Source of the DNA: Paracrocinitomix mangrovi
Lineage (GTDB): Bacteria; Bacteroidota; Bacteroidia; Flavobacteriales_D; Crocinitomicaceae
Direction: 5' to 3'
Assembly: GCF_019740355.2 (NCBI RefSeq)
Contig: NZ_CP091819.1
Span: 1,054,001-1,118,000, forward strand
Length of the DNA: 64,000 bases
Part shown: piece after piece, positions 28,548-48,807 of the stretch
How the letters are laid out: each line of letters opens with the position of its first letter
Position numbering within the stretch: position 1 is the first letter of the stretch
Made by a program: the position numbers and the translations under genes
Notes under the pieces: model-generated
Database searches by the model: none
The model's input: only the letters and a program-made list of their open reading frames with translations
Told to the model about the DNA's origin: nothing

Positions 28548-29570
28548 TTAAGGTTTAATTCTAGCCTTTCTTTTTTTTCTGATCAGATATATGAATCCAA
28601 TAAATAATGACGCAGAAAGCGCTCCAAAAAAGAATGACCAACTTAAAACGGTTTGTTTAATGTACAATGGTAAAAGACGCCAATTAAAAGGTTCCTTTCC
28701 CACATTTTCTTGCCAAAAATCAACATTGTAATATGTTAATTCTTCTAAATCCTGACCTGTTAGAGAATGTGTTGTAAATGTCGCCTCACCATCTTTAACA
28801 TCAACCAATAAAAATGCATCTCTTTTTAACCCTCTAATTGCAGTGGCTATAAATTGTATGTTTCCATCTTGATGATAAAAAAATGAAGCAGGTGCATCTC
28901 CTAAAGATCCCGCAAACCAATAAACAGATGTATGTTTTGAAATCTCTTTTACAAGTGGATAAACATCTGATTCAAAATTATTAGCCAACAATGATTGAGT
29001 GTTATCTTCAAAAATCCCTTCCATTTCAGGATATTGACTCTTCCATATTGTTCTGTGAGCATAAACAAATACATTGTTGTATTGATTTTTGGAAATTCCC
29101 TGGATCATGGATAACTGATCATCATTAATATCACCATCATCTAATTCTGTGTCAAGAATCACATGTAAATCACCATTTAATTCAAAGCTTCCATAAGTGT
29201 TTCCATAATTTTCTTGATACACATCACCGCTCAAATCATGATTTCCTACCGAATTAATCAATGGCACATTTAATTTTGAAAACAGTGATCGTTCGTAGTA
29301 AGGAATATCATTTCTTACATCCAAAAACAAATCTCCCAAGCAAACAAGCATTGTTGGATTCTCACTATTTATCCAATCAATATTAGCTAGCAATGTATTA
29401 GTTGGATATCCACTTGAATTAGCTGATCCACCATAAAAATGACCACTGATTATGAATTTGTAATTTCCTGTAGAATCCTCTTTTACATTTAGGCCATTAA
29501 AAGGAGAAACATATTGTGCAACAAGAGTGTTAGCAGCTATAATCGATATGATTAAAAGTAACTGTTTCAA
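28548..29570 (-). CDS. Membrane-anchored metallophosphoesterase-like protein, last gene of the CotH operon
   Basis: 340 residues: signal peptide, a calcineurin-like phosphoesterase domain, and a C-terminal membrane helix (about 305-328) with a basic tail, so the enzyme faces the periplasm. Motifs: GDLFLD (about 78), GNHD (about 110) and a downstream VYAHRTIW. Motif I, normally D-x-H, reads SGHFYG, and the usual late G-H-x-H is not evident (AGSLGDAP instead), so metal binding is altered. Its start overlaps the end of the upstream CotH-like gene by 4 bp. A phosphatase acting on products of the neighbouring kinase is attractive but unproven. Confidence 0.8.
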   Translation of the reverse strand: MKQLLLIISIIAANTLVAQYVSPFNGLNVKEDSTGNYKFIISGHFYGGSANSSGYPTNTLLANIDWINSENPTMLVCLGDLFLDVRNDIPYYERSLFSKLNVPLINSVGNHDLSGDVYQENYGNTYGSFELNGDLHVILDTELDDGDINDDQLSMIQGISKNQYNNVFVYAHRTIWKSQYPEMEGIFEDNTQSLLANNFESDVYPLVKEISKHTSVYWFAGSLGDAPASFFYHQDGNIQFIATAIRGLKRDAFLLVDVKDGEATFTTHSLTGQDLEELTYYNVDFWQENVGKEPFNWRLLPLYIKQTVLSWSFFFGALSASLFIGFIYLIRKKRKARIKP

Positions 29571-31942
29571 ATCTTTAGTTTTTTAACTTGGTCTTGCTTT
29601 GATTTATAGATGTTTAAAATAGATGCATAATTATTTTTAGCATCAGCAACTTCAAAACCTACATCAGCATTTCCTAAATCCCCTCCATAAAAATGACATT
29701 CAGAGCTATTGTTCAAATAACCTATTTGCTCATTTTCATTAAGTTTAATATTCCAGGCTTTATTAATAGCGAGATGGTCTAATTCAAATACCTTTTTATG
29801 TTCCTGAATATTACAACTGTTCATTTTTACTATGGAACCATCAGAATGTAAAAAAGTATCTCCCTTTTTCGACTGAACATTGGACATTGTCAAACTACTT
29901 CTATCCAATAATCCGAATTGTTTTACATTGCCAAAATAACTGTCAACTACTACAATTTCTGAATTTAGCGATTGAATAAAATTACTTTGCACATCTGCGA
30001 CAGAACAGTGATTTATAGATGTTGTAGAATTCACTATATATAATGTATTCTTCATTTCAACAAAATTGGTGTTCTTAAAATCCAATTCACTATTAAAAGC
30101 CGAAATAGTTTCACCTTTATTTTCTCCAATTAGTAATACTTCATTTTCATTGGCTCCAAAAGACTCTAATTTTGAATTATTAAAAGTGAAACTTCCATTA
30201 TTAGAGAAAGTTATTTTTTGTCCTGGGAGTAATCTCAATTTACCATTTGTCAATTCATACTCTTCCTGAATGCTAATGTCCATTTCATCAAAAAAATAGA
30301 TTGAATCATATGCATTAAAAACAATTTTTGGATGCTCCTCAATACTAGTTTTTGGTGTAAGAAATTCATCCAAATCCATTACAGTTTGATAAGAGCTATA
30401 CTCTTCCACCACAATTTCAAATTCGTTTTTACTTCCAGGGATTTTAGCAGTAATCACACAATTCTTTACTTTTTTAGAATGATGATTGACCTTCAGAGGA
30501 AAGTAAGTTGCAAATGTATTTCTAGCTTTTGCGGGTAAAATAATACCTTCTAAACTCACTTTTTCTTTTCCATCAATTTCGATTTTTACCAATTCAATTG
30601 GAAAGTCTGTAACAGGAGCTAGCTCAAAATAAGCAGTTGAATCATCCCATTTTTGAGTGAAGGCATGAAAAGGTTTTGGTAATTCAAGATTATGTCTAAT
30701 CAAATCAATGTTCTCAAAATATGGATCAAAAGGGAATTTTCTATAGGCAAACTCTTTAGATAAGATTCCCATTTTTTGATCAAATTGCGTTGAAATTGAG
30801 GCAATAAATTCATTGAAGTATGCTTCATCACAAATGCGTTCAAGCGCTTTAATATATGCTTTGAAAAATACGGGATCACTAAATAATTGATTGTGATAAT
30901 CCTCATCTACTTTACCATAATCATCAGGAAGTCTTTGACCAGCTATTCTCTCTGATTTTCGAACACTGAAACTCTCATACCCCACAGGTTCTATCAATTC
31001 TGTTTCATTGTTATAATAGAACTTAACATCACTCCAGTCTAAAGAATGATATCCTCCTACCAGATCAATTATTGCGTGAAAGCGAGCCATCAATTCGACA
31101 TCAAAAACTTCAGATGTGATTTTGTCACCTCTTCTAAAAGCCTCAAGCTGAGAAGCACCTTTTTGATAGTTTTGCAGTAATTCTTCATCATCTTTTACTG
31201 TTCCCCTATCGTATGGTTCTGCAAATGAAGAAGAATAAGCCGAATACTCCTCATCTAAGTAGATATGGTGCAATTCATCTATTCTCCATTCCCAGTACAA
31301 ATTAGGGTTCCATCTTAAAATTGCTCCTTTTGGTCTGTTATTATGTTCTAAAACATGCTGACCAAAATGCTCTTCCATGGCATAAATTCCAAGATCTTTA
31401 TCATTCAATTCAACATTCAAAAAGTCATAGTTCAAATGAATAATACCCTCATGCGCTAATAATTGATGATAGGTCCATTCATATATATAATTTCTTGTAC
31501 CCGGATGTTGTAATGAAAACCTGTACATGCCAAGAATCGGTTCATCAGTTTTCACTCTAAAAGACCATTTGTCACCTTCTAAGTGATCCGTCATATGTCC
31601 TTTAAGTCTTATTGTTCCCTTAGATTTTTCTCCGTCAACCTCAACATCACAATCTACATAATTATCTCCTACATTTATTTGAACCCCTCTTTCCAAGGCC
31701 TCATCCCTTTTATCTGATAAGAAATCATAATCCTTTTCAGACATAGATATTTTCATGTTTAATACCTCTACTTCATTGGCCAACTGTTTGTTGTGATAGT
31801 AATTGGTGATAAAATCTAATGCGCCATCATATCCATACCGCTTTACAAACCTGTTAAAAACAAAAAGTCCAACAACCATACCCAGTAAGGTTACAAGAAT
31901 TAGTCTTTTAAAAAGTTTAGTTGTATTTATTTTCTTAGGCAT
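29567..31942 (-). CDS. CotH-like protein with degenerate metal site and C-terminal repeat region
   Basis: 791 residues: N-terminal membrane helix (about 12-30), a CotH-type region at about 45-400, and a C-terminal Asn/Ser-rich part (about 560-770) whose repeated short strands suggest a beta-helix. The CotH relationship is seen in TIRLKGHMTDH, RFSLQHPGTRNYIYEWTYH, LGIYAMEEHFGQHVLEHN and the helix FHAIIDLVGGYHSLDW. Where active CotH has a D-x-D motif, this protein reads GYESFS (about 318-323), so the metal-binding Asp is missing and it may be a pseudokinase or binding protein. Same transcript as the catalytic CotH and the phosphoesterase. Confidence 0.78.
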   Translation of the reverse strand: MPKKINTTKLFKRLILVTLLGMVVGLFVFNRFVKRYGYDGALDFITNYYHNKQLANEVEVLNMKISMSEKDYDFLSDKRDEALERGVQINVGDNYVDCDVEVDGEKSKGTIRLKGHMTDHLEGDKWSFRVKTDEPILGMYRFSLQHPGTRNYIYEWTYHQLLAHEGIIHLNYDFLNVELNDKDLGIYAMEEHFGQHVLEHNNRPKGAILRWNPNLYWEWRIDELHHIYLDEEYSAYSSSFAEPYDRGTVKDDEELLQNYQKGASQLEAFRRGDKITSEVFDVELMARFHAIIDLVGGYHSLDWSDVKFYYNNETELIEPVGYESFSVRKSERIAGQRLPDDYGKVDEDYHNQLFSDPVFFKAYIKALERICDEAYFNEFIASISTQFDQKMGILSKEFAYRKFPFDPYFENIDLIRHNLELPKPFHAFTQKWDDSTAYFELAPVTDFPIELVKIEIDGKEKVSLEGIILPAKARNTFATYFPLKVNHHSKKVKNCVITAKIPGSKNEFEIVVEEYSSYQTVMDLDEFLTPKTSIEEHPKIVFNAYDSIYFFDEMDISIQEEYELTNGKLRLLPGQKITFSNNGSFTFNNSKLESFGANENEVLLIGENKGETISAFNSELDFKNTNFVEMKNTLYIVNSTTSINHCSVADVQSNFIQSLNSEIVVVDSYFGNVKQFGLLDRSSLTMSNVQSKKGDTFLHSDGSIVKMNSCNIQEHKKVFELDHLAINKAWNIKLNENEQIGYLNNSSECHFYGGDLGNADVGFEVADAKNNYASILNIYKSKQDQVKKLKI

Positions 31943-31950
31943 TTGGACAT

Positions 31951-33327
31951 TTAATGAGTTTGGGACTTAAGTTGACTTATTTCCAGAATATGATCTTCAT
32001 GTTCATCTTTTTCAACTGGAACATAATTTTTTCCAACTAGTTTTTGTCCTAGTATGGTAAGAATTGTCAAAAATATTATTGTAAATGGATTTAAAGATGC
32101 AACTAGCCAAGACTCATATGTGATATTGAATAACAAGGCAACAGCAAAGGCAAAAGATATATTGTTATGTTTAATAGATTTAAAAATTAAAGTTAAAAAA
32201 GCAGTAAAATAACTGAATACACCAACAATTCCACTATCAAACCACATTGACAGATACGAATTGTGAACCCCTCCATCATGACCTTCCATCTGTAACCAAT
32301 AATAGTTTGGACGCATGGTGTGTTCATCATGCCCAAAACCTCCACCTATAAAAAAAGTATCCTGAATTTGATCCCAAGCAAAAATCCAGGCAACATACCT
32401 TCCGGATCCTTCCTCAAGACTACTCACCCTAAAAAATTCTTCTAATCCAAAAAATGCAATTCCCTCTACAAATAAATTGAATATTTGATCACTAAATACC
32501 AAGAATGAAAGTAAGACTATTAATGTTATACCCCAGTTAATTTTCAGCAGACTATAAGTAAGAAAAAATATAGACGTTGTAAGTAAAGCATTTCTTGAAC
32601 CGCACCATATTATTGTGGTGAAAATAATAGTTAAAATATACCACCTTTCTTTCTTTGTTATTTTTGCCAGTTGAAATTCCTCTATTACAACCCATAAAAT
32701 AAATATTAAAGTCGCAAAAAAACCTGCTGCATTAGGATTACCAAAAACTCCTTTAAATCTTGTTGAATTTCCTAGTACACCTATTTCGGGTATAGCAAAT
32801 CCCAAAACAACTCCAATCGTCAACATCCCTATACAAAAAGTGAGTAAGGAAATCCAAAAAAGTTCTTTTTGTTCCTTATGCAAATAGTTCACATAAATAG
32901 GAATCATAATATACATTAAAACATAAGAAATAGTTTTTTGTAATCCCACAGTGATATTAATAGATTGTGAAAGTCCTAAAGAGACTACCAAGAAGAAAGG
33001 GACAAAATAAATTATAAACTTTGGAATCGGAGAGAATAACTCTCTATTTAAAACTGCAAAAGCTGCAAGAGTTAAAGGAATGAGTGGCTTCAAATCCTTA
33101 GCAAATTGTAAATCTTGGTATGTTGCATTTGCTACGGGGATATAGTCTGATAATATCAACATCCAAATAGCTGTAATGAATAACTCAAAGAATCTCTGTT
33201 TAATACCTAGTAATACCAATACTACAGGAAAAATTATGTAAATAGTAGGATCAACCCATACCCCCATGATATACATGAAAACAAGGATCATAATAAACTG
33301 AATATGTTCTTTATAAGCTGCTATCAT
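31951..33327 (-). CDS. O-antigen ligase/polymerase-like membrane protein
   Basis: 458 residues, about 11-12 membrane helices, with the large periplasmic loop of the WaaL/Wzy superfamily near residues 330-380: IGGGFGHDEHTM, then HDGGVHNSYLSMWFDSGIVG, where the H-N-S-Y-L motif is the family hallmark. Earlier GSRNALL (about 240) also fits. Members either ligate or polymerise glycans on an undecaprenyl carrier at the periplasmic face. It sits between two CotH-type genes (1-bp and 8-bp gaps) and downstream of rmlA, suggesting glycan transfer coupled to phosphorylation. Ligase versus polymerase cannot be told from sequence alone. Confidence 0.85.
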   Translation of the reverse strand: MIAAYKEHIQFIMILVFMYIMGVWVDPTIYIIFPVVLVLLGIKQRFFELFITAIWMLILSDYIPVANATYQDLQFAKDLKPLIPLTLAAFAVLNRELFSPIPKFIIYFVPFFLVVSLGLSQSINITVGLQKTISYVLMYIMIPIYVNYLHKEQKELFWISLLTFCIGMLTIGVVLGFAIPEIGVLGNSTRFKGVFGNPNAAGFFATLIFILWVVIEEFQLAKITKKERWYILTIIFTTIIWCGSRNALLTTSIFFLTYSLLKINWGITLIVLLSFLVFSDQIFNLFVEGIAFFGLEEFFRVSSLEEGSGRYVAWIFAWDQIQDTFFIGGGFGHDEHTMRPNYYWLQMEGHDGGVHNSYLSMWFDSGIVGVFSYFTAFLTLIFKSIKHNNISFAFAVALLFNITYESWLVASLNPFTIIFLTILTILGQKLVGKNYVPVEKDEHEDHILEISQLKSQTH

Positions 33328-34950
33328 TTACAATTGATCTAATTGTGCTTGGTACACATCTTTCCTGTTCAATAAAAACTTCAAGTTTTTATCACAATTT
33401 TCTTCCCATACTTCAACTGAACTAATATTTCTCCAACGGTCCAATTGCAGTTGTATTTCAGGGCGATAAGTGTTCATGAAAACATTGTACTTTTCAAGTA
33501 CCTTTTCTTCATTAAAATATTGCTGGATATTGTTGTCACAAGTTGATTTAAACTTCTCTTTGAATTTTTTATTTGTTAATAGTTTGCAAAACAAAATTGA
33601 ATGTACATCTTCCAATTTCTCGGCTCTTTCAAACATGTTCAAATTTACATTTTGCTCACCAGGATAAGCCAATGAATAGTCAAGGTCATTTAACATCCAC
33701 TTCCATTTTTCTCCTTTGGCTTTATAACAAATTGAATTATTAGAAGGCCAGTCATTATTGGCATAATATGTTTCGAAAAAAATGTAATCAATAAAAGACT
33801 TGATCGAGATCTCTTCTTTTACTTTATCATATAATTCACCATCTACACTTTCAACAGATTTTAATTCATCTATAAGTTTAATAAACTCATCTCTATCTTT
33901 GTTTGAACCATTTTTTAAATACGCACTTCCTGTTTCCAAAATTGTTATTTCACTTTTTTTAGCACCAGAAGTTTTAGCTATGAAATAGTCATCAATTCTT
34001 TCTCTTAGATTATGTAGGCCCCAGTAATTTCCGTTTATATATAGTCTTACCGCTTGATACTTTTGGATTAAGACATTTGATTCAGCAGCTAAATCCTGCA
34101 TCAAACAATCCGCAAACATTGTTTTTACATTATCATTTCCTGACATTCTAATTACAAGTGATTCGTATTTCTTTAAACCACCCTTTCCAAAGAATTTATA
34201 CTTCAATTTATCCTTTCCATACTTGGTTCTGGCATTAATTTTAAATGATTTTTGAGGAAAGCCTCTTGTTGCATTTCCACTTATCCTTAAACCTACATTT
34301 TGGTCCAAAACCAACTCATTGTCCACGAAATATTGAAACTGACATTCACGCTCCCATTCAGCACCTCTTTGGGTAAAATTCGCATCCCTATCCCACCATG
34401 ATTCTTGGAAGTCTTGATTTTGCCAAGAGGCTTTTCCAAAAACTAAAAGTCCATTTACCGGATCAAATAATTCATTATTGGGAATAGATAAGTTTACTAT
34501 TGCTAAGTCAGTATCTATTCCTTCAAGGGAAGTAAGAAACTTGCGATTACTTCTTGTTTTTGTGGTTTGATTTTCAAGAATCACAACCAACGATTTAAGC
34601 TTTTTAGCTTCGTTAAATGCAGGTTTCCAACGAATAGAGGCAGGATAATAAATATTTGTTGAATTTTCAAAATCTGACAAATCGATCTTATCTCCAAATG
34701 GCACAAAATGTTCACCACCATCAATAGAAACGTGAATTTTCATTGCAGGATTATAGGCTTCAACTTTTTGAATATCTCCTCCATTTCCAACAATTTGCAG
34801 ATTATTTTCAGCCAAAAACTTTTCATTTTGTTGGGTTATATCACTTTCAGTCAACTCAACAAGACCATATTTCCAGGATAATCCAATTAAACCTAGAGCT
34901 AAAACATAAAAAATAAGTAGTTGATCTATTTTAGCTTTTTTCCACATCAT
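33328..34950 (-). CDS. CotH-family atypical kinase
   Basis: 540 residues with an N-terminal membrane anchor. The CotH fold is evident: LRISGNATRGFPQKSFKINART (nucleotide-contacting Lys region, about 225-243), VRLYINGNYWGLHNLRERID (about 295-310), FFETYYANNDWPSNNSICY, and WKWMLNDLDYSLAYPG (about 414-428), whose D-L-D supplies the metal-binding Asp. An N-terminal sandwich-like region carries HVSIDGGEHFVPFG. CotH of Bacillus phosphorylates spore-coat proteins; Gram-negative members are uncharacterised. Its 20-bp overlap with the DUF4956-like gene repeats a known CotH pairing. Substrate unknown; an exported protein or glycan is plausible. Confidence 0.88.
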   Translation of the reverse strand: MMWKKAKIDQLLIFYVLALGLIGLSWKYGLVELTESDITQQNEKFLAENNLQIVGNGGDIQKVEAYNPAMKIHVSIDGGEHFVPFGDKIDLSDFENSTNIYYPASIRWKPAFNEAKKLKSLVVILENQTTKTRSNRKFLTSLEGIDTDLAIVNLSIPNNELFDPVNGLLVFGKASWQNQDFQESWWDRDANFTQRGAEWERECQFQYFVDNELVLDQNVGLRISGNATRGFPQKSFKINARTKYGKDKLKYKFFGKGGLKKYESLVIRMSGNDNVKTMFADCLMQDLAAESNVLIQKYQAVRLYINGNYWGLHNLRERIDDYFIAKTSGAKKSEITILETGSAYLKNGSNKDRDEFIKLIDELKSVESVDGELYDKVKEEISIKSFIDYIFFETYYANNDWPSNNSICYKAKGEKWKWMLNDLDYSLAYPGEQNVNLNMFERAEKLEDVHSILFCKLLTNKKFKEKFKSTCDNNIQQYFNEEKVLEKYNVFMNTYRPEIQLQLDRWRNISSVEVWEENCDKNLKFLLNRKDVYQAQLDQL

Positions 34951-35350
34951 CTTTAAGTGGTAGAAACATTATTACCAGCACAATTAGCGCAAAACCAATA
35001 AGTGTTTGGATTACACTTCCTACCCCACATCCTACACCTGTTAAGGCAACTAAAAAAAGTCCAATGGTTTGTAGTTGATTTCTCTTTTCACCAAGAGCTA
35101 ATAGAAGTATAACAGCTGCAGCAAGTACTGAAAATGGCAAAGAATTTTTTGAAATTGCTACTATTAAAGCGATACCAATCGCCATTAGTGTTCCGTTCTT
35201 TATTACTATGGTCTCAAATTTTCGATTCAAAACCTTTTGCAATAGCAGACCTAACAATCCTGCAACTAACAACTGAAACAAAAACAGAGGAATGTATTTT
35301 GGTGTAAATCCATTCAAACTATCAGCAAATATTGATTTTAACATTTCCAT
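34931..35350 (-). CDS. DUF4956-like small membrane protein
   Basis: 139 residues, about four membrane helices. The pattern LLGLLLQKVLNR, then RNQLQTIGLFLVALTGVGCGVGSVIQTLIGFALIVLVI resembles the DUF4956 family (MgtC-like membrane proteins), which in other bacteria occurs next to CotH and a VTC-type polyphosphate-polymerase domain. No VTC protein is seen here. It overlaps the CotH kinase gene by 20 bp and follows rmlA by 2 bp. The function of DUF4956 is unknown; an accessory membrane partner of the kinase is possible. Family call is moderate, based on pattern and context. Confidence 0.62.
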   Translation of the reverse strand: MEMLKSIFADSLNGFTPKYIPLFLFQLLVAGLLGLLLQKVLNRKFETIVIKNGTLMAIGIALIVAISKNSLPFSVLAAAVILLLALGEKRNQLQTIGLFLVALTGVGCGVGSVIQTLIGFALIVLVIMFLPLKDDVEKS

Positions 35351-35352
35351 TT

Positions 35353-36234
35353 TTAGAAGGTCTTATTTTTTTGATCTAAAAGCTTTAATAAGTATTGTCC
35401 ATATTGATTCTTAGAAAGTGGCTCAGCTAATTTTTTTAACTGATTTTCATCAATATATCCTTTACGATATGCTATTTCCTCAATACAAGAAACCTTTAAT
35501 CCTTGCCTCTGTTCAATAGATGCAATGAAATTTGAAGCCTGTATTAATGATTCATGTGTACCGGTATCTAACCATGCCATCCCTCTTCCAAGCAATTCTG
35601 TTTGTAAAGTTCCTTCGGCTAAATACAATTTATTCAAGTCTGTAATTTCTAATTCTCCTCTTGCTGACGGCTTTAAACTTTTGGCTTTTTCAACCACTGT
35701 ATTATCGTAATAATAAAGTCCTGTAACCGCGTAATTAGATTTTGGATTAGCTGGTTTTTCTTCTAAACCAATAGCTTTTTTATTTTCGTCAAATTCAACA
35801 ACTCCGTATCGTTCAGGATCATTTACATAATACCCAAAAACAACAGCTCCTTTTTCTATCTCAGCTGCTTTTTGCAATATTTTTGACAAACCGTATCCAT
35901 AAAATATATTATCTCCCAATACCAAACAAGCTGTATCATTTCCAATAAACTCTTCACCCAAAATAAAAGCCTGGGCAAGTCCATCCGGTGATGGTTGAAC
36001 TTTGTATGAAATTGATATCCCTAAATGGCTACCATCTCCCAATAATTCTTCAAAAACTAATACGTCACGAGGAGTAGAAATGATTAATATTTCTCTAATT
36101 CCGGAAAGCATCAAGACAGACAATGGATAAAATATCATTGGCTTATCATAAATGGGTAAAATTTGTTTTGAAACGGCCTTAGTCAATGGGTACAATCTCG
36201 TTCCCGAACCTCCTGCTAATATTATTCCTTTCAT
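35353..36234 (-). CDS. rmlA: Glucose-1-phosphate thymidylyltransferase
   Basis: 293 residues. Converts dTTP and glucose-1-phosphate to dTDP-glucose, the first step towards dTDP-L-rhamnose and related sugars. Diagnostic motifs: [18 protein letters not shown] at the N-terminus, [18 protein letters not shown], the active-site [29 protein letters not shown], and [15 protein letters not shown]. It heads the CotH/O-antigen-ligase operon. The other rml genes (B, C, D) are not in the window, so the sugar made depends on genes elsewhere. The 140-bp upstream region is shared with the divergent MORN-repeat gene. Confidence 0.95.
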
Positions 36235-36357: not shown

Positions 36358-36374
36358 TTAAAATTACCAATGTG

Positions 36375-37616
36375 ATGACATTCAAAAATACCTATATCGT
36401 TACCTTATTATTACTTTTTAGCAACATTGTTATAGCCCAATGTGATTCGTCTACTTATACATTACAAGGCAAACTTGTTACAAACAATAGTGCAAAGGTA
36501 AAGATACTTGCCGATAACATGCCCACAATTCCCAAAGTAGGACAGATTGCAGAAATGAGTAAGTTCTTTGAATCTAACTTTTTAGGAATGGCAACTACTG
36601 GTTGGCTAAACATAGCAACAGTTGAATGTTTGGTGTTCAATGAAAATGACCATACCCTTACTGTTAAAGTAATTGAAGAGCATTCTGAAATTATTCAAAA
36701 TGGTAAAAAGAAAAATCACTTTGCGAAAGACAATTTAGTAAAACTTGAATGGAAGCAAGCATCAGTTATTGAACCATTCTTCAAAGTAGTGAATGATGAT
36801 ACGATTACTAAAGGAACTTTGCTTTGTGGTGAAAGACATGGGGTTTGGGAATATTATTACTTGGGAGGACAAATTCAGGAAAGAGACAATTTTATCAATG
36901 GAAAACCTCATGGAAAATATCAAAGTTGGTACCCAGATGGCGCTATAAAAGAAACTGGGGTTTATCAAAATGGAGAACGCCATGATACCTTGAGAATATT
37001 TTATAAAAATGGAAATCTGGAGAAGTTAGTGGTATATAAAAATGGCGACAAAAATGGTCAGTATACTTCCTTTTATGAAAATGGGAATCCAAAATACACT
37101 GTCACTTATTACAAAAATGAAATGACAGGGCCCTTCACAAATTTCTATGACAACGGTTATAAAAAAGAAAGTGGACAGTTAGTAAATGGTCAAATAACTG
37201 GGGAATTAAGAGGGTTTTACGAAAATGGATCTCAATATTTTATTGCCGGATTTGATAACAATATGAAAAATGGAAACTATCAAGGGTTTTACAAAAGCGG
37301 CGAAAAATTTAAAGATGCTAATTACTCAGACGATAAGTTAAGCGGTCCGTATCGAGAATACTTCAAAAATGGAAATATCCTAATAGAATGTGTATTTACA
37401 CTTGATGAATTTGATGGAAATTATATTGAAAGATTTGAAAATGGAAACATCAAATTAAAAGGTTCTTATGACAATGGCACAAAAGTTGGATTTTGGGAAG
37501 AGTATTATGAAAATGGAGCTCCTAAAACTAAGGGAAGCTTTGATAAAGAAGGCAATAAAATCGGAAAATGGTTTAATTGGGATGAGAATGGTAAAAAGAC
37601 CAAGTCAAAGTTTTAA
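36375..37616 (+). CDS. Secreted MORN-variant (YwqK-like) repeat protein
   Basis: About 413 residues with a signal peptide ending IVIA-Q. An N-terminal unique part (to about 150) with two cysteines is followed by roughly ten YwqK-type MORN-variant repeats of 20-24 residues, each with a core such as Y-x-N-G-x-x-x-x-G-x-Y-x-x-(F/W)-Y (examples YQSWYPDGAIKETG, YKNGDKNGQYTSFYENG). These repeats form extended beta-meander sheets thought to bind partners; members are often mislabelled antitoxins. Exported here, so a cytoplasmic antitoxin role is unlikely. Paralogue of the next gene, 36 bp away. Confidence 0.85.
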   Translation: MTFKNTYIVTLLLLFSNIVIAQCDSSTYTLQGKLVTNNSAKVKILADNMPTIPKVGQIAEMSKFFESNFLGMATTGWLNIATVECLVFNENDHTLTVKVIEEHSEIIQNGKKKNHFAKDNLVKLEWKQASVIEPFFKVVNDDTITKGTLLCGERHGVWEYYYLGGQIQERDNFINGKPHGKYQSWYPDGAIKETGVYQNGERHDTLRIFYKNGNLEKLVVYKNGDKNGQYTSFYENGNPKYTVTYYKNEMTGPFTNFYDNGYKKESGQLVNGQITGELRGFYENGSQYFIAGFDNNMKNGNYQGFYKSGEKFKDANYSDDKLSGPYREYFKNGNILIECVFTLDEFDGNYIERFENGNIKLKGSYDNGTKVGFWEEYYENGAPKTKGSFDKEGNKIGKWFNWDENGKKTKSKF

Positions 37617-37652
37617 AATTTAGTATTTTAGCGGCTCAAGAATGAACTGATT

Positions 37653-38498
37653 ATGAAAAATATTCTACTACTTACTGCAGTTTTAACAGGTTTTTATTCA
37701 AACGCTCAATGTGACACCACAAAACATAAAGAGGCATGGAGAAATGGCTCATATGTTGAAGGATGGTATGCTTGTGAGCAAAGAACAGGAACCTGGAAAT
37801 TTTACGATAAGGAAGATAAACTGTTGAGAATTGAAAATTATTCAAAAGGTTCGTTGAATGGTGAAAGATCCCAAATGTATCCAAATGGTCAGCAAAAATC
37901 TTTAGAGATTTGGGTTGATGGTAAATTGGACAAAACTGCTCAGTATTGGGCTGAAAATGGAACCATGATTGAAGAAACTAATTACAATAATGGTGAATTA
38001 GAAGGTGTTTCAAAAAAATGGTTTGAGAATGGTAGAATGCAGAGCATGACTACTTACGTCAATGGTAAAAAGACAGGTCCGTACGAGATATACTACGAAA
38101 ACGGAAACTTAAAAGAAAAAGGAGTTTTTGAAAATGGTGAGCCAAAAGGAACCATTAAATCATACTTTGAAAATGGGAAATTGAGTTCTGAAATCAATTA
38201 TGAAAATGGAATTCAACATGGATCATACACTACATTTTTTGATAACGGAAGTGTGAGTGTTAAAGGAACTTATGAAAAAGGCATTCAAGTAGGCTTATGG
38301 AATATTTACCATGTAAATGGACAAATGATTTCAAACGGAAATTATGTTGATGGATCCAAAGATGGTGAATGGGAGGAATACTTTCCATCAGGTAATCCAA
38401 AATCAAAAGGGGTTTATGTAAAAGGAGAAAAAATTGATGTGTGGTACGAATGGACTGAAGGAGGTAAAAAGTCTAAGACCAAGCACGAATCTAATTGA
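37653..38498 (+). CDS. Second secreted MORN-variant (YwqK-like) repeat protein
   Basis: 281 residues with a signal peptide ending SNAQ. The mature chain is almost entirely YwqK-type repeats (SQMYPNGQQKSLEIW, KWFENGRMQSMTTYVNGK, IYYENGNLKEKGVFENG), about eight units, ending in a Trp-rich capping repeat (GEWEEYFPSGNPKSKG). It shares the WYACEQRTGTWKFYDKE-like first repeat with its neighbour but lacks that protein's long unique N-region. The stop overlaps the TTG start of the Nramp-like gene by 4 bp, so translation may be coupled. Role unknown. Confidence 0.85.
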   Translation: MKNILLLTAVLTGFYSNAQCDTTKHKEAWRNGSYVEGWYACEQRTGTWKFYDKEDKLLRIENYSKGSLNGERSQMYPNGQQKSLEIWVDGKLDKTAQYWAENGTMIEETNYNNGELEGVSKKWFENGRMQSMTTYVNGKKTGPYEIYYENGNLKEKGVFENGEPKGTIKSYFENGKLSSEINYENGIQHGSYTTFFDNGSVSVKGTYEKGIQVGLWNIYHVNGQMISNGNYVDGSKDGEWEEYFPSGNPKSKGVYVKGEKIDVWYEWTEGGKKSKTKHESN

Positions 38499-42317: not shown

Positions 42318-45300
42318 ATGAACAATTCTTACAAAAAGATATTTTTCTTTCTATTCATTTTTGGATCATTCACTCCTTTTGTTTTTGGACAGTCAAGCAT
42401 GTACTTCAAAACACTTGACCAAAAAACTACTGGTATTGATTTTGCCAATAAATTGACGGAAAGAGACACTTTTAATTACCTCAATTTCCAGTACATGTAC
42501 AATGGTGGTGGTGTTGCTGTTGGAGACATCAATAATGATGGTTTACAAGACATCTATTTTACAGGAAACCAGGTTGCGGATAAATTATATCTCAACAAAG
42601 GAAACCTACAATTTGAAGACATCACCAAAAAAGCTTTAGATGACAATGTAGATAAAGGTTGGCATACAGGCGTTACAATGGCAGATGTGAATCAAGATGG
42701 TTGGTTAGATATTTACGTTTGTCGTTCTGGATTAAGTTCTTTTAAAGATTTAAGGTCAAACTTACTTTACATCAACAATCACGACAATACTTTTACTGAG
42801 AAATCTGCCGAATATGGCGTTGATATTTCAAAAGGTACCAATCATGCAGCTTTCTTTGATATGGATAAGGATGGAGATCTTGACTTATATGTGCTTAACA
42901 GGCCTTACGAAGAAGATTATGACGAAAATGAAACTCAAGAAAACTACGCAAGTTCAGATGATCTATTAGAGTATGTTGATGGAAAATTTATCAATATCAG
43001 TGAAAAAGCAGGAATTCAAAATAGAGGTTTTGGACTAGGTGTTGCCATTTCAGATATCAATCAAGATGGATGGTTAGATATATATGTGTCCAACGACTAT
43101 GTAATGCCTGATTACTGTTACATCAATCAGGGAAACAAAACATTCAAAGATGAACTGAAAGAAAGAACCAATCACGTTTCTCAATTTGGAATGGGATGTG
43201 ATATTGCCGACTTCAATAATGATGGATTTGTAGATATCATGGTAGTAGATATGGCCGCAAATGATCATATCAAATCAAAAAAAACCATGGCCGGAATGAA
43301 TCCAAATCAATTTTGGGAATCTGTTATTGATCATGGTAGACAGTATGAATACATGTACAACACCTTACAGTTAAACAATGGTAACGGAACTTTTTCAGAA
43401 ATCGCTCAAATATCAGGAGTTCAAAAATCTGACTGGTCATGGGGTCCTTTATTTGTAGATTTTGATAATGACGGTTTAAAAGATTTGTTGATTACCAATG
43501 GATACCGAAGAGAAGTGAGAGATAATGACTATGTAATCAAATTGAGAGGTATTGACTATGATATTTCGGACTTTGAAGAAGTTTTAGCCATGGCAGATGA
43601 AACTAAAGTGGAAAATTACTTCTACAAAAATGAAGGAGATCTCAAATTCAAATTGAATACTGAAGAATGGCAAACAGGTAATTTGATCAATTCAAATGGA
43701 GCTGCTTATGCTGATTTAGACCTGGATGGAGATGTTGACATTGTAGTAAATAATATGGAAGATGTATCCACTATTATTGAAAACAAACTGGATAATGGCA
43801 ACAATTTTTTCAGAATTGATTTGGGAGATCATGCAGAAGGTGCAAAAATTTGGATCAATGCAGGAGGAAAAACTTATTATCAAGAAGGATATGGTTCTCG
43901 CGGTTATCTTTCTAAATCTGAAACTGTAATACATTTTGGAATTGGAAAAGCAGAGAAGATTGACTTAATCAAAGTTGATTTTGCGGATGGTAAAAAATAC
44001 CTGAATATGACATCTCAAAATGCAAATCAACAAGTTAAAGTACCTTATGAAAACAATTATCTAGATGAAGGAACATTTCCACTTCCTACTATTTTCAGAG
44101 AATCTAACATAATCAATTATAAACATACCGAGTATGTAATGAATGATTTTGCGCGTGAGATATTGATCCCTCACAGAATGTCGCAATTGGGGCCATTTAT
44201 GTCAAAAGGCGACATTAACGGGGACAAACTGGATGACTTCTACATTTCAGGTTCTAGATACTATCCTGGTGCCATGTTTTTGCAATTGACCAAAGGAAAG
44301 TTTACCAAAATCTCAGGTCCATGGGAAAATGATAAAGAAAAAGAAGAACTGGGTTCACTCTTTTTTGATTGTGACAATGATGGTGACCAGGATTTATATG
44401 TTATTGGTGGATCAAATGAATATTTGTTTTATACCGGCGATCCTAAAGAAATAGAATACAATAAAAACTTACAAGACAGATTGTACATCAATAACGGCCA
44501 AGGTCAATTCACTGATGAAACAGCTAATAGATTACCTGAAATGATCTTATCCGGTCAAAGAGTTACTGCAGGAGATTATGATAAAGACGGAGATTTAGAT
44601 TTGTTTATTGGAGGAAGACAGATTCCGGGTTATTATCCTTTTGCTCCTCAAAGCTATTTACTTAGAAATGACGACGGTAAATTTACTGATGTGACCAGCA
44701 ATTCACCTGATCTTAAAAATCCTGGAATGATTACTGAATCTGTTTGGCAAGATTTTGATAATGACGGGGATTTGGATTTGATATGTGTCGGAGAATGGAT
44801 GCCCGTTACCTTCTTTAGAAACGATAATAACTCTTTCAAAAATGTAACTGCTGAATTAGGTCTTGATAAATCTGTGGGATGGTGGATGTCTATTTCATCA
44901 GGAGATTTTAATGGAGACGGAATTGCGGATTATGTTGTAGGTAATATTGGAGAAAATAACAAGTTCCATCCATCAATTGAAAAGCCTTTAGAAGTGTTTG
45001 TAAAAGACTTTGACAATAACGGCACAAATGACATAGTACTTGGAAAATACACTTACGGAGATTGTTATCCTGTAAGAGGAAGACAATGTTCGTCTCAACA
45101 AATGCCATTTATATTGGATAAGTTCCCTACTTATGACCAATTTGCCCATGCTAATCTTGAAACTATTTATGGTAACCAAAATTTAGATAGCGCACTCCAC
45201 TACTCTGCTACAGAATTTGCAAATTGTGTAATTCTGTCAAATGGTGAAGGAGGTTTTGAATTACATCACTTACCAATTGAAGCGCAATTAGGACCAATTA

Positions 45301-45578
45301 ACGCTAGTTTGGTTGATGATTTTAATGGAGATGGAATTCTTGACATTCTTGGAGTTGGAAATAACTTTGCTGCAGAAATTGAAACTGTCAGATATGACGG
45401 AGGCCGTGGTGCTCTTTTATTAGGTGACGGAAACGGCCATTTTAAAACCTTAGCTCCAAATGAATCTGGATTTTTTGTCAATACAGATGCTAAAGACATG
45501 ATTCTTATTGACAATTACGTAATTGTATCATCAAATAGTGATAGCATCAAAGTTTTTAATTGGCTCCTAAATGAATAA
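42318..45578 (+). CDS. Exported FG-GAP/VCBS and ASPIC/UnbV repeat protein (CRTAC1-like), copy 1
   Basis: 1086 residues with a signal peptide ending VFGQ. Repeated calcium-loop motifs of FG-GAP/VCBS beta-propeller blades are spread throughout (GDINNDGLQDIYF, DMDKDGDLDLYV, DFDNDGLKDLLITNG, DLDLDGDVDIVVNN, DYDKDGDLDLFIGG), and an ASPIC/UnbV domain (FFRIDLGDHAEGAKIWI to IHFGIGKAEKIDLI) lies at about 500-570. Such proteins are exported, calcium-binding and often work in polysaccharide loci, though no SusC/D pair is here. No T9SS sorting domain is evident at the C-terminus. The next gene is a paralogue overlapping by 8 bp. Confidence 0.9.
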   Translation: MNNSYKKIFFFLFIFGSFTPFVFGQSSMYFKTLDQKTTGIDFANKLTERDTFNYLNFQYMYNGGGVAVGDINNDGLQDIYFTGNQVADKLYLNKGNLQFEDITKKALDDNVDKGWHTGVTMADVNQDGWLDIYVCRSGLSSFKDLRSNLLYINNHDNTFTEKSAEYGVDISKGTNHAAFFDMDKDGDLDLYVLNRPYEEDYDENETQENYASSDDLLEYVDGKFINISEKAGIQNRGFGLGVAISDINQDGWLDIYVSNDYVMPDYCYINQGNKTFKDELKERTNHVSQFGMGCDIADFNNDGFVDIMVVDMAANDHIKSKKTMAGMNPNQFWESVIDHGRQYEYMYNTLQLNNGNGTFSEIAQISGVQKSDWSWGPLFVDFDNDGLKDLLITNGYRREVRDNDYVIKLRGIDYDISDFEEVLAMADETKVENYFYKNEGDLKFKLNTEEWQTGNLINSNGAAYADLDLDGDVDIVVNNMEDVSTIIENKLDNGNNFFRIDLGDHAEGAKIWINAGGKTYYQEGYGSRGYLSKSETVIHFGIGKAEKIDLIKVDFADGKKYLNMTSQNANQQVKVPYENNYLDEGTFPLPTIFRESNIINYKHTEYVMNDFAREILIPHRMSQLGPFMSKGDINGDKLDDFYISGSRYYPGAMFLQLTKGKFTKISGPWENDKEKEELGSLFFDCDNDGDQDLYVIGGSNEYLFYTGDPKEIEYNKNLQDRLYINNGQGQFTDETANRLPEMILSGQRVTAGDYDKDGDLDLFIGGRQIPGYYPFAPQSYLLRNDDGKFTDVTSNSPDLKNPGMITESVWQDFDNDGDLDLICVGEWMPVTFFRNDNNSFKNVTAELGLDKSVGWWMSISSGDFNGDGIADYVVGNIGENNKFHPSIEKPLEVFVKDFDNNGTNDIVLGKYTYGDCYPVRGRQCSSQQMPFILDKFPTYDQFAHANLETIYGNQNLDSALHYSATEFANCVILSNGEGGFELHHLPIEAQLGPINASLVDDFNGDGILDILGVGNNFAAEIETVRYDGGRGALLLGDGNGHFKTLAPNESGFFVNTDAKDMILIDNYVIVSSNSDSIKVFNWLLNE

Positions 45579-48500
45579 ATGGCTTGCTACCGGATTTATT
45601 GCGGTATTCAATTGCATAGCAATTGGACAAAGTGAAATGTACTTTGAAGCTGTTTCTCAAGACCATTCGGGAATTAAATTCACCAATACTTTAAACGAGA
45701 CGATTGATCTAAATTACCTCAATTTTCAATACATGTATAATGGCGGCGGAGTAGCTATTGGAGACATTAATAATGATGGTTTACCTGATATCTACTTTAC
45801 CGGAAATCAAGTGTCTGATAAATTGTATTTGAATAAAGGAAATATGGTTTTTCAGGACATTACTAAAAAAGCCCTGGATAACAAAGTTGATGAAGGATGG
45901 CATACTGGAGTTACAATGGCTGATGTCAATCAAGATGGTTGGTTGGATATTTATGTATCAAGATCAGGATCTGAAAAAATGGGTGATCTAAAATCTAACC
46001 TACTTTACATCAATAAGGGTAATAAAACCTTTGATGAGCAATCAGAAAAATATGGTGTAAATACGGCAAGAGCAACTAATCAAAGTGCATTTTTTGATAT
46101 GGACAATGATGGTGATTTGGATCTCTATGTTATGAACAGACCTTATCCTGTTGGTGAGAGAGTAGAAAGTGTAAACATGAATGAATTTCCTTATTCAGAT
46201 CAACTGTACGAAAATCAAGGGGGTGTATTTGTAGATATTTCTGCCAAAGCCGGGATAAAAAACTTTGGTTTTGGATTAGGTATTTCAATAAGTGACTTTA
46301 ATGAAGATGGATTCCAGGATATCTATATCTCTAATGATTATATCGGTCAAGACTACATGTATATCAACCAAAAGAATAAAACTTTCAGAGAAGAAATTAA
46401 ACTGAGAACCAAGCATATTGAGTACAATGGAATGGGAAGTGATGTTGCAGATATTGATAATGATGGACATGTAGATTTTATGGTAGTTGACATGGCCGTG
46501 GATGATCATATCAAATCAAAGAAAAATATGGCCGGTATGAACAGATTTGATTTTTGGAAATCAGTTGAATTTGGAAACCAGCTAGAATATATGTTTAACG
46601 CTCTTCAACTCAATAATGGAAATGGAACTTTTTCTGATATCGCCTTACTTTCGGGTGTTGCAAAAACAGATTGGTCCTGGGGTCCCCTCATTGCTGATTT
46701 TGACAATGACGGATTTAAAGATATTATCATAACTAATGGTTTTAAAAGAGAAGTTAGAGACAATGACTATTTAAAGAAGTTAGAAAGCTTAGATTACAAA
46801 GCTGAAGATTTTCAAGAAGTGCTTGAAATGGCTGCCGAAACCAAAGTAGCTAATTACTTTTTCAAAAACACCGGACAATATAAATTTGAAGATGTCACTA
46901 GTAGCTGGAAAATGGACGTACCGATAAATTCAAATGGTGCTGCTTATGCAGATTTAGATTTAGACGGTGATTTAGATCTGGTTGTAAATAACATGGATAC
47001 CACCTCATATATTCTTGAAAATAAACTAAAATCGAAAAACCATTACTTAAAAATCGACATAGATAAAGGGTATGAAGGAGCAAAAATCTATGCACTTGCA
47101 GATGGTCGTGTTTATTATCATGAATGTCAAATGACCAGAGGATTTCAATCTTCAGTAGATAAAATAATTCACATAGGATTAGGAAAAATTCAAACCATTG
47201 ATCAACTTCAAATAGTATTCTCTAACGGCAAATCTGTTATAAAAGAAAACGTGAAAGCCGGCCAAACTTTGAAAATCTCATCAACTGAAGCAACGGAAAA
47301 TGAGAGAATATTACTGCATAAATCATCCCCTGTTTTTGTCAATAATGTTCCTTTTTCTTACAAACACCAAGAATTTGTTATTGATGATTTTAGCAGGGAG
47401 GTTTTATTACCACACAAAATGTCACAATTGGGGCCTTTAATGTCAAGTGGGGATGTAAATGGTGATGGATTAACTGATTTTTTCATTTCGGGAAGTCGAA
47501 AATTTGCGGGCGCATTATTTATGCAATTGCCTAATGGAAAGTTTGATATAAGACACGGACCATGGGAAGTTGAAAAAGAAAAGGAAGATTTAGGTTCACT
47601 TTTATTTGATTGTGATAATGACGGCGATTTGGACCTGTATATCGTTAGTGGTTCCAATGAATATCACTGGGATACACAAAACCCAAATGAAATTGCGTAC
47701 AATGAAAATTTACAGGATGGTTTGTATATCAATGACGGAAAAGCAGTGTTTACTAATGAAACTTATGTGCGTTTACCTAAAATGATTAATTCAGGACAAT
47801 CTGTAGTTGCCGCGGATTACGACAATGACGGAGACTTAGATTTATTTGTTGGAGGTAGACAAATCCCAGGCAAATACCCCTACGCACCCAATTCTTATTT
47901 ACTAGAAAATGGAAAAGGAAAATTTAAGGATGTCACCGATAATTCTCCTGACCTCAAAACTCCCGGAATGATTACGGATGCTGAATTTGTTGATATTGAT
48001 GGTGATACTGATTTGGATTTAATATGTGTAGGTGAATGGATGCCTATTAGCGTTTTTATTAATGAGGATAATAAGTTCATTAATAAGACTAAAGAATATG
48101 GTTTGGCCAATACCGTTGGATGGTGGATGAGCATTGCATCAGAAGATTTAAATTCTGATGGTAAACCTGACTTTGTAATAGGTAATATTGGTCAAAACAA
48201 TAAGTTTCATCCTTCTGAAAATAAACCATTGGAGATATATGTCAACGACTTTGACGAGAATGGCACTTTGGACATAGTTCTAGGAAAACACACTTATGGC
48301 AGTTGCTATCCGGTTAGAGGTAGAGAATGCTCTTCAGAACAAATGCCCTTTTTAAAAGACAAATTCCCTAATTACGATTCTTTTGCCAATGCAGATCTTG
48401 TCAAAATTTATGGAGACAATAAACTAAATCAATCACTTCATTTAACCGCTTCAAATTTTTCTTCTTGCATTTTAATGTCCTCAACAAAGGGATATAAACT

Positions 48501-48807
48501 AAGTGAATTACCTGTAGAAGCACAGTTTGGACCAATTAATCAAATACTATTGTATGATTTCAATCAAGACAATCACCTTGACATTTTAACCGTTGGAAAT
48601 AATTACGTTACTGAAGTGGAAACAGAGAGGTATGATGCTAGTAGAGGTTGTCTCTTAATTGGTAACGGAAAAGGAGAGTTTACGCCTTTAAAACCATCCG
48701 AATCTGGATTTATGGTTACTTCTGATGCTAGAGACATGATCATTGTAGATAATGCTGTTATTGTATCTTCAAATAACGATTATTTAAAAAAGTTCGTTTT
48801 TAAATAA
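45571..48807 (+). CDS. Exported FG-GAP/VCBS and ASPIC/UnbV repeat protein (CRTAC1-like), copy 2
   Basis: 1078 residues, collinear with copy 1 from end to end and sharing long identical stretches such as LNYLNFQYMYNGGG-type and VTMADVNQDGWLDIYV. Signal peptide ends near AIGQ. Same propeller blades (DMDNDGDLDLYVMN, DFDNDGFKDIIITNG, DYDNDGDLDLFVGG) and ASPIC/UnbV part (about 495-570). Divergence is concentrated in linker regions and around residues 570-620. ATG overlaps the previous stop region by 8 bp, so expression is coupled. Clearly a tandem gene duplication; distinct ligands for the two proteins are possible. Confidence 0.9.
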   Translation: MNKWLATGFIAVFNCIAIGQSEMYFEAVSQDHSGIKFTNTLNETIDLNYLNFQYMYNGGGVAIGDINNDGLPDIYFTGNQVSDKLYLNKGNMVFQDITKKALDNKVDEGWHTGVTMADVNQDGWLDIYVSRSGSEKMGDLKSNLLYINKGNKTFDEQSEKYGVNTARATNQSAFFDMDNDGDLDLYVMNRPYPVGERVESVNMNEFPYSDQLYENQGGVFVDISAKAGIKNFGFGLGISISDFNEDGFQDIYISNDYIGQDYMYINQKNKTFREEIKLRTKHIEYNGMGSDVADIDNDGHVDFMVVDMAVDDHIKSKKNMAGMNRFDFWKSVEFGNQLEYMFNALQLNNGNGTFSDIALLSGVAKTDWSWGPLIADFDNDGFKDIIITNGFKREVRDNDYLKKLESLDYKAEDFQEVLEMAAETKVANYFFKNTGQYKFEDVTSSWKMDVPINSNGAAYADLDLDGDLDLVVNNMDTTSYILENKLKSKNHYLKIDIDKGYEGAKIYALADGRVYYHECQMTRGFQSSVDKIIHIGLGKIQTIDQLQIVFSNGKSVIKENVKAGQTLKISSTEATENERILLHKSSPVFVNNVPFSYKHQEFVIDDFSREVLLPHKMSQLGPLMSSGDVNGDGLTDFFISGSRKFAGALFMQLPNGKFDIRHGPWEVEKEKEDLGSLLFDCDNDGDLDLYIVSGSNEYHWDTQNPNEIAYNENLQDGLYINDGKAVFTNETYVRLPKMINSGQSVVAADYDNDGDLDLFVGGRQIPGKYPYAPNSYLLENGKGKFKDVTDNSPDLKTPGMITDAEFVDIDGDTDLDLICVGEWMPISVFINEDNKFINKTKEYGLANTVGWWMSIASEDLNSDGKPDFVIGNIGQNNKFHPSENKPLEIYVNDFDENGTLDIVLGKHTYGSCYPVRGRECSSEQMPFLKDKFPNYDSFANADLVKIYGDNKLNQSLHLTASNFSSCILMSSTKGYKLSELPVEAQFGPINQILLYDFNQDNHLDILTVGNNYVTEVETERYDASRGCLLIGNGKGEFTPLKPSESGFMVTSDARDMIIVDNAVIVSSNNDYLKKFVFK

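Follow-up and report, generated by a model that had tools for sequence, protein, structure and literature searches.

Does a CotH-fold protein without the D-x-D metal motif, encoded close to a canonical relative, still have a working active site? The question is raised by a gene block of Paracrocinitomix mangrovi, located in a window of 64,000 nucleotides (contig NZ_CP091819.1, positions 1,054,001 to 1,118,000; the coordinates below are those of the window). A preliminary description, made from the letters only, had seen two CotH-like open reading frames in one operon and considered the second a pseudokinase that had lost its metal motif and gained a repeat domain, acting as scaffold, substrate receptor or allosteric partner. 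Both reading frames proved to be as described, and both products, here CotH1 and CotH2, are CotH-like; the block has the following composition.

28548..29570, minus strand: metallophosphoesterase-like protein with predicted signal peptide and C-terminal anchor (Pfam PF00149; hydropathy)
29567..31942, minus strand: CotH2, divergent CotH-fold protein, 791 aa (ORF list; Pfam CotH 24.3 bits)
31951..33327, minus strand: O-antigen ligase/polymerase-like membrane protein (Wzy_C; Pfam PF04932, E 1e-10)
33328..34950, minus strand: CotH1, assigned as canonical CotH-family kinase-like protein, 540 aa (Pfam CotH 143.3 bits; VIA Z 33.5 to 5jd9)
34931..35350, minus strand: 139-aa membrane protein, perhaps a short relative of DUF4956 proteins (hhalign)
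35353..36234, minus strand: rmlA/rfbA, glucose-1-phosphate thymidylyltransferase (TIGR01207, E 7.6e-152)

The PF00149 score of the metallophosphoesterase-like protein is 21.3 bits, slightly below the cut-off of 21.5; as for the 139-aa protein, it had nothing above cut-off in Pfam and an hhalign probability of 70% (E 4e-5) with the DUF4956 set. In 18 other loci the divergent CotH2 is accompanied by the Wzy-like gene (18/18), by CotH1 (17/18) and by the phosphoesterase (17/18), each miss corresponding to a contig end, so that the pairing of a canonical with a divergent CotH noted at this locus is a conserved one. rmlA/rfbA is close to the cassette only in near relatives, and distant cassette loci have glycosyltransferases and asparagine synthase nearby. 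Across the phylum, at least 3 of 395 genomes, P. mangrovi included, were matched by the 19-row CotH2 profile (E ≤ 1e-50), and at least 3 of 395, again with P. mangrovi, by a profile of 29 relatives (E ≤ 1e-20) made of 11 of the 19 CotH2 orthologues and 18 wider rows; the wider relatives used are the matches with an assigned locus. Scanning the genome contigs with CotH2 returned one locus. A viral or phage origin of CotH2 was rejected, the phage collection being devoid of matches.

Regarding its fold, CotH2 barely passes the Pfam CotH family (PF08757), with a cut-off of 23.8 bits and a match to profile positions 1-200 of 322, and its orthologue L046 falls under it with 22.6 bits; direct sequence search of the PDB gave chance-level matches only, and the 19-row orthologue profile no useful match in the same database. 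In the AF2 model (pLDDT 89.6, pTM 0.67), residues 59..421 superpose on residues 1..356 of Bacillus cereus CotH (5jd9) with a VIA Z of 25.8, 320 aligned residues and an rmsd of 3.4. The protein is divided as follows.

31841..31924, minus strand: N-terminal membrane helix, residues 7-34 (AF2 helix 7-34; hydropathy peak 10-28)
30680..31768, minus strand: kinase-like domain, residues 59-421 (VIA alignment to 5jd9; orthologue identity)
30377..30673, minus strand: beta domain, residues 424-522 (DSSP of the AF2 model)
29570..30376, minus strand: right-handed beta-helix, residues 523-791 (VIA to AlgG 4nk8)

The C-terminal beta-helix-like repeats reported earlier are real; they are longer than the approximately 200 residues proposed, since they span 269 and follow a separate beta domain, and they superpose on the periplasmic alginate epimerase AlgG (4nk8) with a VIA-align Z of 22.8, 248 aligned residues and an rmsd of 2.6. 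That this domain was gained is not borne out: Pfam Beta_helix matches three of the six wider relatives scanned at E ≤ 0.01, one of them above the curated cut-off, and the beta-helix is therefore likely to be ancient in the subfamily. The sequence of L058, an orthologue of 545 aa, stops short of it. The positive-inside counts, 3 and 3, do not settle the orientation of CotH2, for which we infer an inner-membrane anchor, with the domains most likely facing the periplasm.

The segments that bear on catalysis in the two proteins are listed below.

33736..33753, minus strand: CotH1 catalytic loop D400-W-P-S-N-N405 (D400 and N405 invariant in 17/17)
33679..33687, minus strand: CotH1 metal motif D422-L-D424 (residue states in 17 rows)
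31550..31609, minus strand: CotH2 N-lobe RLKGHMTDHLEGDKWSFRVK segment, residues 112-131 (invariant residues)
31370..31375, minus strand: CotH2 E190-E191 (E191 aligned with CotH1 E317)
31022..31048, minus strand: CotH2 altered catalytic loop HSLDWSDVK, residues 299-307, with S300, D302 and D305 (alignments)
30974..30982, minus strand: CotH2 metal-site segment G321-Y322-E323 (E323 on the CotH metal Asp, register from alignments)

At the metal site CotH1 reads NDLDYSLAYPG and CotH2 EPVGYESFSV, in agreement with the DLDYSLAYPG and GYESFS readings of the preliminary description. D422 occurs in 17/17 CotH1 rows, and the D424 position holds D in 15 and N in 2 of 17; by its sequence, CotH1 is a canonical CotH. 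D-x-D is absent from all CotH2 orthologues, which have G/S/A-Y-E in 19/19 with Glu323 invariant, and Asp occupies the Glu323 position in 18/18 wider relatives; as to whether the Asp is lost throughout the homologues, a check proposed beforehand, it is replaced in the orthologues and present in the wider relatives. The profile of 29 relatives aligns with 5jd9 without gaps over residues 294-325 and places Glu323 on the metal Asp. When bridging relatives are included, E323 falls on CotH1 D422 in 13 of 14 multiple alignments; without them it does so in 0/7, where D422 meets N312 (3), K329 (1) or a gap (3). In hhalign, a mixed alignment of orthologues and wider relatives (32 rows, omitting orthologue L047 and wider rows L028 and L034) placed Y322 on D422, off by one, when compared with a CotH alignment made of 12 of the 17 known CotH1 rows and five other CotH proteins of the P. 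mangrovi genome; the 19-row CotH2 alignment matched this CotH set over the N-lobe only (48%). On the grounds of the profile to 5jd9, the residue states and the bridged alignments, loss of the metal acid was rejected in favour of an Asp to Glu exchange; as far as alignments can tell, the metal-site acid is kept in CotH2, as Glu. Another Asp in this position had been named beforehand as evidence against a pseudokinase; an acid is indeed present, as Glu and not as Asp. The position of B. subtilis CotH D251, whose D251A variant is reported inactive (PMC7821199), thus has Glu323 instead of Asp in 19/19 orthologues.

As for the catalytic loop, S300, D302 and D305 are each conserved in 19/19 CotH2 orthologues, and the catalytic Asp (D228 position, five before the Asn) maps to S300, H299 or D302 depending on the method; the profile alignment to 5jd9 places S300 on it and D305 on the Asn partner. 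The N-lobe has R112, K114, G115, D119, H120, K125, W126, S127, R129 and K131 invariant in 19/19, the E191/E317 pair is aligned in 21/21 runs, and both E190 and E191 are invariant across the 32 rows of orthologues and wider relatives.

Among the four cassette genes compared, the most conserved part is the CotH2 kinase-like domain: its mean identity is 67.3% versus 46.1% for the CotH1 kinase domain over 66 near pairs (12 near orthologues), and 45.4% versus 30.6% over 60 far pairs (L041 and L043, with CotH1 missing or cut, are omitted, as is L038 for the phosphoesterase), with 67/363 invariant columns versus 31/393. Within 47 motif positions fall 31 of 65 invariant CotH2 residues (P 1e-15, for segments picked after viewing the alignment); this clustering, together with the conservation of the domain, counts against the bare scaffold proposed initially. 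In the tree, a branch with 100/100 support separates CotH2 and the wider rows (37) from CotH1 and the other CotH rows (17), by which a recently decayed copy of CotH1 was rejected; the CotH2 clade itself has 82/65 support, and long branches meet, leaving the finer order unsure.

Taken together, the CotH2 active site seems remodelled rather than inactivated, and the protein may thus catalyse an unusual reaction at the cell surface. Our tentative reading is that CotH2 represents a deeply separated CotH-fold subfamily and may be a transferase that depends on metal and uses a displaced catalytic residue, operating in a surface-polysaccharide cassette with CotH1, the O-antigen-ligase-like membrane protein and the metallophosphoesterase. 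Its cleft would combine the Glu323 acid on the metal site, Asp305 in place of the Asn partner and an extra Asp302 with the invariant N-lobe and Glu pair, the catalytic Asp being replaced at its usual place. The putative substrate would be a polysaccharide or a lipid-linked intermediate on which the Wzy-like protein acts, and the beta-helix would hold the sugar chain. A point against this reading concerns the donor, since the periplasm is expected to contain no ATP. A more specific proposal, that proteins of the operon-bound CotH2 clade actively transfer groups in the periplasm through a reconstructed metal site (Asn/Asp to Asp/Glu, plus an added Asp), drawing on a non-ATP donor such as lipid-linked pyrophosphate or polyphosphate to modify surface polysaccharide with CotH1 and the Wzy-like protein, is rather doubtful as a whole.

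The pseudokinase idea fails at the metal residue on which it was built, and the altered catalytic loop can still carry it: an acid occurs at positions 296-304 in 0/18 wider relatives (N305 in 17/18), so that the CotH2 subfamily may be inactive. CotH2 would then transfer no phosphate, bind a nucleotide or phospho-sugar, and activate or position CotH1 as Fam20A does for Fam20C, in line with its conserved pairing with a canonical CotH. In the Fam20 pair (PMC5413348), a kinase and an altered kinase likewise occur together on the outer side of a membrane, with an allosteric partner in mind; these are animal proteins, and Fam20A needs no cations to bind ATP, whereas CotH2 retains an acid at each of the two metal positions. 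Such a partner is on balance unlikely, because the metal acid is retained, the CotH2 domain is more conserved than that of its supposed active partner, and no CotH1 homologue was found at E ≤ 1e-3 in nine neighbourhoods of wider relatives, indicating that the subfamily needs no such partner next door. A partner role would make CotH2 the bacterial equivalent of the Fam20A/Fam20C arrangement.

An ordinary CotH-type kinase, in which D302 is catalytic after a two-residue shortening of the loop, D305 and E323 bind the metal and a protein or glycan is phosphorylated, seems improbable. Conservation of D302 in every orthologue agrees with it, as does the placement of D302 on CotH1 D400 by hhalign and in 13 of 21 alignment runs (H299 in the other 8); however, D302 is perhaps aligned merely as an Asp, as it takes this place in 1/7 runs when the wider family is joined by one CotH2 row alone, and the helix-to-strand loop is equally long in both models (CotH2 296-306, CotH1 396-406), a point in favour of aligning S300 without gaps. 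A glycan-binding structural protein, with the CotH fold as mere platform for a polysaccharide-binding beta-helix, would suit the AlgG-like fold and the polysaccharide setting and is very unlikely, given that the motif segments are nearly frozen and the beta-helix, missing in L058, is the part of CotH2 that varies most (mean identity of 28.4% among near orthologues, 0/269 invariant).

The transferase reading can be set beside known systems. CotH2 shares with the Bacillus CotH kinase (PDB 5jd9, 5jda) the fold, the Glu in the E190-E191 segment and an acid on the metal site; it differs in having Glu for the metal Asp, Asp for the Asn partner, the catalytic Asp replaced or shifted, an added membrane anchor, beta domain and beta-helix, and no spore coat. 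SelO (PMC12409994) is an AMPylase that works with a displaced Asp, the usual catalytic one being absent; CotH2 would resemble it in having a kinase fold with no catalytic Asp at the customary place and a shifted acid, although SelO belongs to a different family. An active CotH2 would represent a kinase-fold enzyme whose catalytic centre has been rebuilt and which works where little ATP is available, and it would make testable which phosphate donor exported bacterial kinases use.

Outside spores, CotH-family proteins recur in exopolysaccharide loci, with no settled role in the literature found; a literature search, mostly at the level of listings, returned no description of the cassette or of a CotH pseudokinase. 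Two reports place VTC-CotH-DUF4956 sets beside the Pel clusters of streptococci and clostridia, which are Gram-positive (PMC7112168, PMC12345266). As in these sets, a CotH-family protein of the cassette and a small membrane protein are neighbours within an exopolysaccharide locus; unlike them, the cassette has no VTC and contains two CotH-fold proteins, a Wzy-like protein and a phosphoesterase, and it links the CotH-fold pair to the polymer-ligase-like protein and the phosphoesterase wherever the contig reaches. By Pfam, VTC is absent from the CotH1/CotH2 block and the sole VTC match of the genome is ~0.45 Mb away; the VTC-DUF4956 pair of the genome is located elsewhere, without an adjoining CotH. 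Finally, two of the wider relatives sit between VTC and DUF4956 genes, one of them with a Wzy_C gene next to it.

Regarding the two CotH-like proteins, both open reading frames are present as in the preliminary description:

29567-31942, minus strand, CotH2, a divergent CotH-fold protein of 791 aa
33328-34950, minus strand, CotH1, a canonical CotH relative of 540 aa

CotH1 passed the Pfam CotH model easily (143.3 bits) and CotH2 barely, with 24.3 bits against a cut-off of 23.8. The AlphaFold2 models of CotH1 (pLDDT 90.4, pTM 0.86; 17 sequences) and CotH2 (pLDDT 89.6, pTM 0.67; 32 sequences) were both good; among solved chains, B. cereus CotH (5jd9) matched CotH1 with Z 33.5 and residues 59-421 of CotH2 with Z 25.8 and an rmsd of 3.4 over 320 residues, while CotH2 523-791 matched right-handed beta-helices, with AlgG at the top (Z 22.8, rmsd 2.6, 248 residues).

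The canonical active site was defined on 17 sequences, namely 12 CotH1 orthologues, including that of the window, and five other CotH proteins of the same genome. D400, N405 and D422 were invariant (17/17) and D424 was Asp in 15 and Asn in two, so that the first Asp of the D-x-D motif is the essential one. By alignment, the catalytic and metal Asp of the solved CotH are 23 residues apart; across the two numberings they probably correspond to B. subtilis D228 and D251, also 23 residues apart and both reported as required for activity (PMC7821199).

As for CotH2, a profile of 29 sequences of its type retrieved 5jd9 (E 0.002) in an alignment gapless over residues 294-325 that paired the metal Asp with E323, the Asn with D305 and the catalytic Asp with S300; the helix-to-strand loop is predicted to be equally long in the two models (CotH2 296-306, CotH1 396-406). 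The register was also examined with seven MAFFT settings on three sets of sequences, giving 21 runs, 14 with bridging relatives and seven without. E323 fell on D422 in 13 of the 14 and in none of the seven, E317 stood opposite E191 in all 21, and N405 was opposite D305 in 15, V306 in three and a gap in three; D400 was paired with D302 in 13 runs and with H299 in eight. The position of the catalytic residue thus varies by method, S300 by profile and D302 or H299 by MAFFT, and the metal acid is probably retained as Glu (E323), with good but not perfect support from the alignments. CotH2 had been called a pseudokinase by loss of the D-x-D metal motif: the motif is indeed gone, but the profile and the bridged alignments indicate that the metal acid is not. 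A better description is a conserved variant of the CotH fold whose active site has been rebuilt, within a polysaccharide cassette.

In the 19 aligned CotH2 orthologues, S300, D302, D305 and E323 are each invariant. The 18 wider relatives, CotH-like proteins outside this group, have G (11), S (6) or A (1) at position 300, N (17) or S (1) at 305, D at 323 in all, and no acid at 302 or anywhere in 296-304 (0/18), so the catalytic Asp is missing there in any register. Judging from the sequences examined, the change from Asn/Asp to Asp/Glu and the extra Asp are confined to the cassette-bound clade. In a tree of 54 kinase-like domains, the 37 CotH2 and wider sequences split from the 17 canonical ones with support 100/100, which rules out a fresh loss and makes CotH2 a member of an old subfamily; CotH2 (82/65) and the wider relatives (88/87) come out as sisters, modestly supported, where long branches meet.

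The cassette comprises CotH1, a Wzy-like gene, CotH2 and a metallophosphoesterase gene, with a 139-aa membrane protein gene and rmlA beyond CotH1. Near-full-length CotH2 orthologues occur in 13 genomes beyond the window's own in a family search of 150 genomes; an order-wide search of 299 genomes (E<=1e-60) gave matches in 12, of which five were additional, bringing the families of the order represented to four. Among 18 fetched loci, the window not counted, the Wzy-like gene is present in all, the phosphoesterase in 17 (locus L038 stops at a contig end) and CotH1 in 17, once as a contig-end fragment; the exception, L041, is again a contig end, and the proposed pairing of CotH1 with CotH2 is therefore genuine. 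Only in L059 does the gene order differ, by an exchange of CotH2 and the Wzy-like gene; extra genes are interposed in several loci, most in L060. The 139-aa protein, possibly a truncated DUF4956 relative by hhalign (70%, E 4e-5), has a counterpart in 13 loci; in the other five its place is taken by an unmatched ORF of 136-137 aa (three) or a contig end (two). rmlA adjoins or lies close to the cassette in near relatives only, and the neighbours in far loci include glycosyltransferases and asparagine synthase. An ORF of ~300-320 aa adjoins the Wzy-like gene at L038:2447-3349, L039:10715-11641, L058:5783-6748, L060:4490-5413 and L061:11498-12436; those of L039 and L058 had no match in a Pfam scan.

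Mean identities, taken over the same genomes (66 near and 60 far pairs; 55 each for the phosphoesterase), were 67.3% and 45.4% for the CotH2 kinase-like domain, 46.1% and 30.6% for the CotH1 kinase domain, 52.3% and 33.9% for the Wzy-like protein, 53.6% and 40.8% for the phosphoesterase, and 28.4% and 14.9% for the CotH2 beta-helix. In the alignment of the 19 CotH2 orthologues, over residues 59-421, 31 of 65 invariant columns lie inside the 47 positions of four motif segments, with a P of 1e-15 that overstates the case because the segments were picked after the alignment was viewed. Such conservation would not be expected of a discarded active site, but a binding-only pocket could show the same.

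Of the roles considered for CotH2, the likeliest, tentatively, is a transferase that depends on metal and has its catalytic residue displaced; in SelO, a kinase fold lacking the catalytic Asp is reported to be enzymatically active by way of an Asp at a shifted position (PMC12409994). Possible, and ranked second, is a partner of CotH1, for which Fam20A offers a precedent (PMC5413348). An ordinary kinase with D302 as the catalytic residue, the pairing of most MAFFT runs and not of the profile, is unlikely, and a glycan-binding structure is the least probable of the four.

CotH1 and CotH2 each have one N-terminal membrane helix, and the charges flanking that of CotH2 are compatible with either side of the membrane. 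For the phosphoesterase, a start resembling a signal peptide, together with a C-terminal anchor and seven positive residues after it, puts the domain outside. The cassette would work at the periplasmic side of the membrane, with lipid-linked sugar chains presumably handled there by the Wzy-like protein.

Pel clusters are reported to be flanked by sets of cotH, polyphosphate polymerase and DUF4956 genes (PMC7112168), and in S. intermedius, where SIR_1594 is a secreted CotH-domain protein, SIR_1594 and SIR_1592 mutants reportedly aggregated less and had altered levels of Pel (PMC12345266). These reports point to a polysaccharide function of CotH proteins, whatever its chemistry; in literature searches, no listed paper dealt with a CotH pseudokinase or with the present cassette. 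Two of the wider relatives, which come from other families in the phylum, sit between VTC and DUF4956 genes, one with a Wzy_C gene next. The window's genome also has adjacent VTC and DUF4956 genes without a CotH gene (L079, G000:C1:1534998-1536265), ~0.45 Mb from its cassette.

Five wider CotH-like proteins of ~790-1080 aa (L068, L069, L070, L071 and L073) have a partly common neighbourhood, with an ORF that begins MNKVVK and a second one, present in four of the five, that begins MSVKTILVSQPKPE; no CotH1 homologue was seen there. Finally, two repeat proteins adjoin rmlA in the window (36372-38498), conserved beside rmlA in several near relatives, with a Pfam MORN_2 match in the first only, and two tandem ~1080-aa proteins carrying FG-GAP and UnbV_ASPIC domains occupy 42318-48807.
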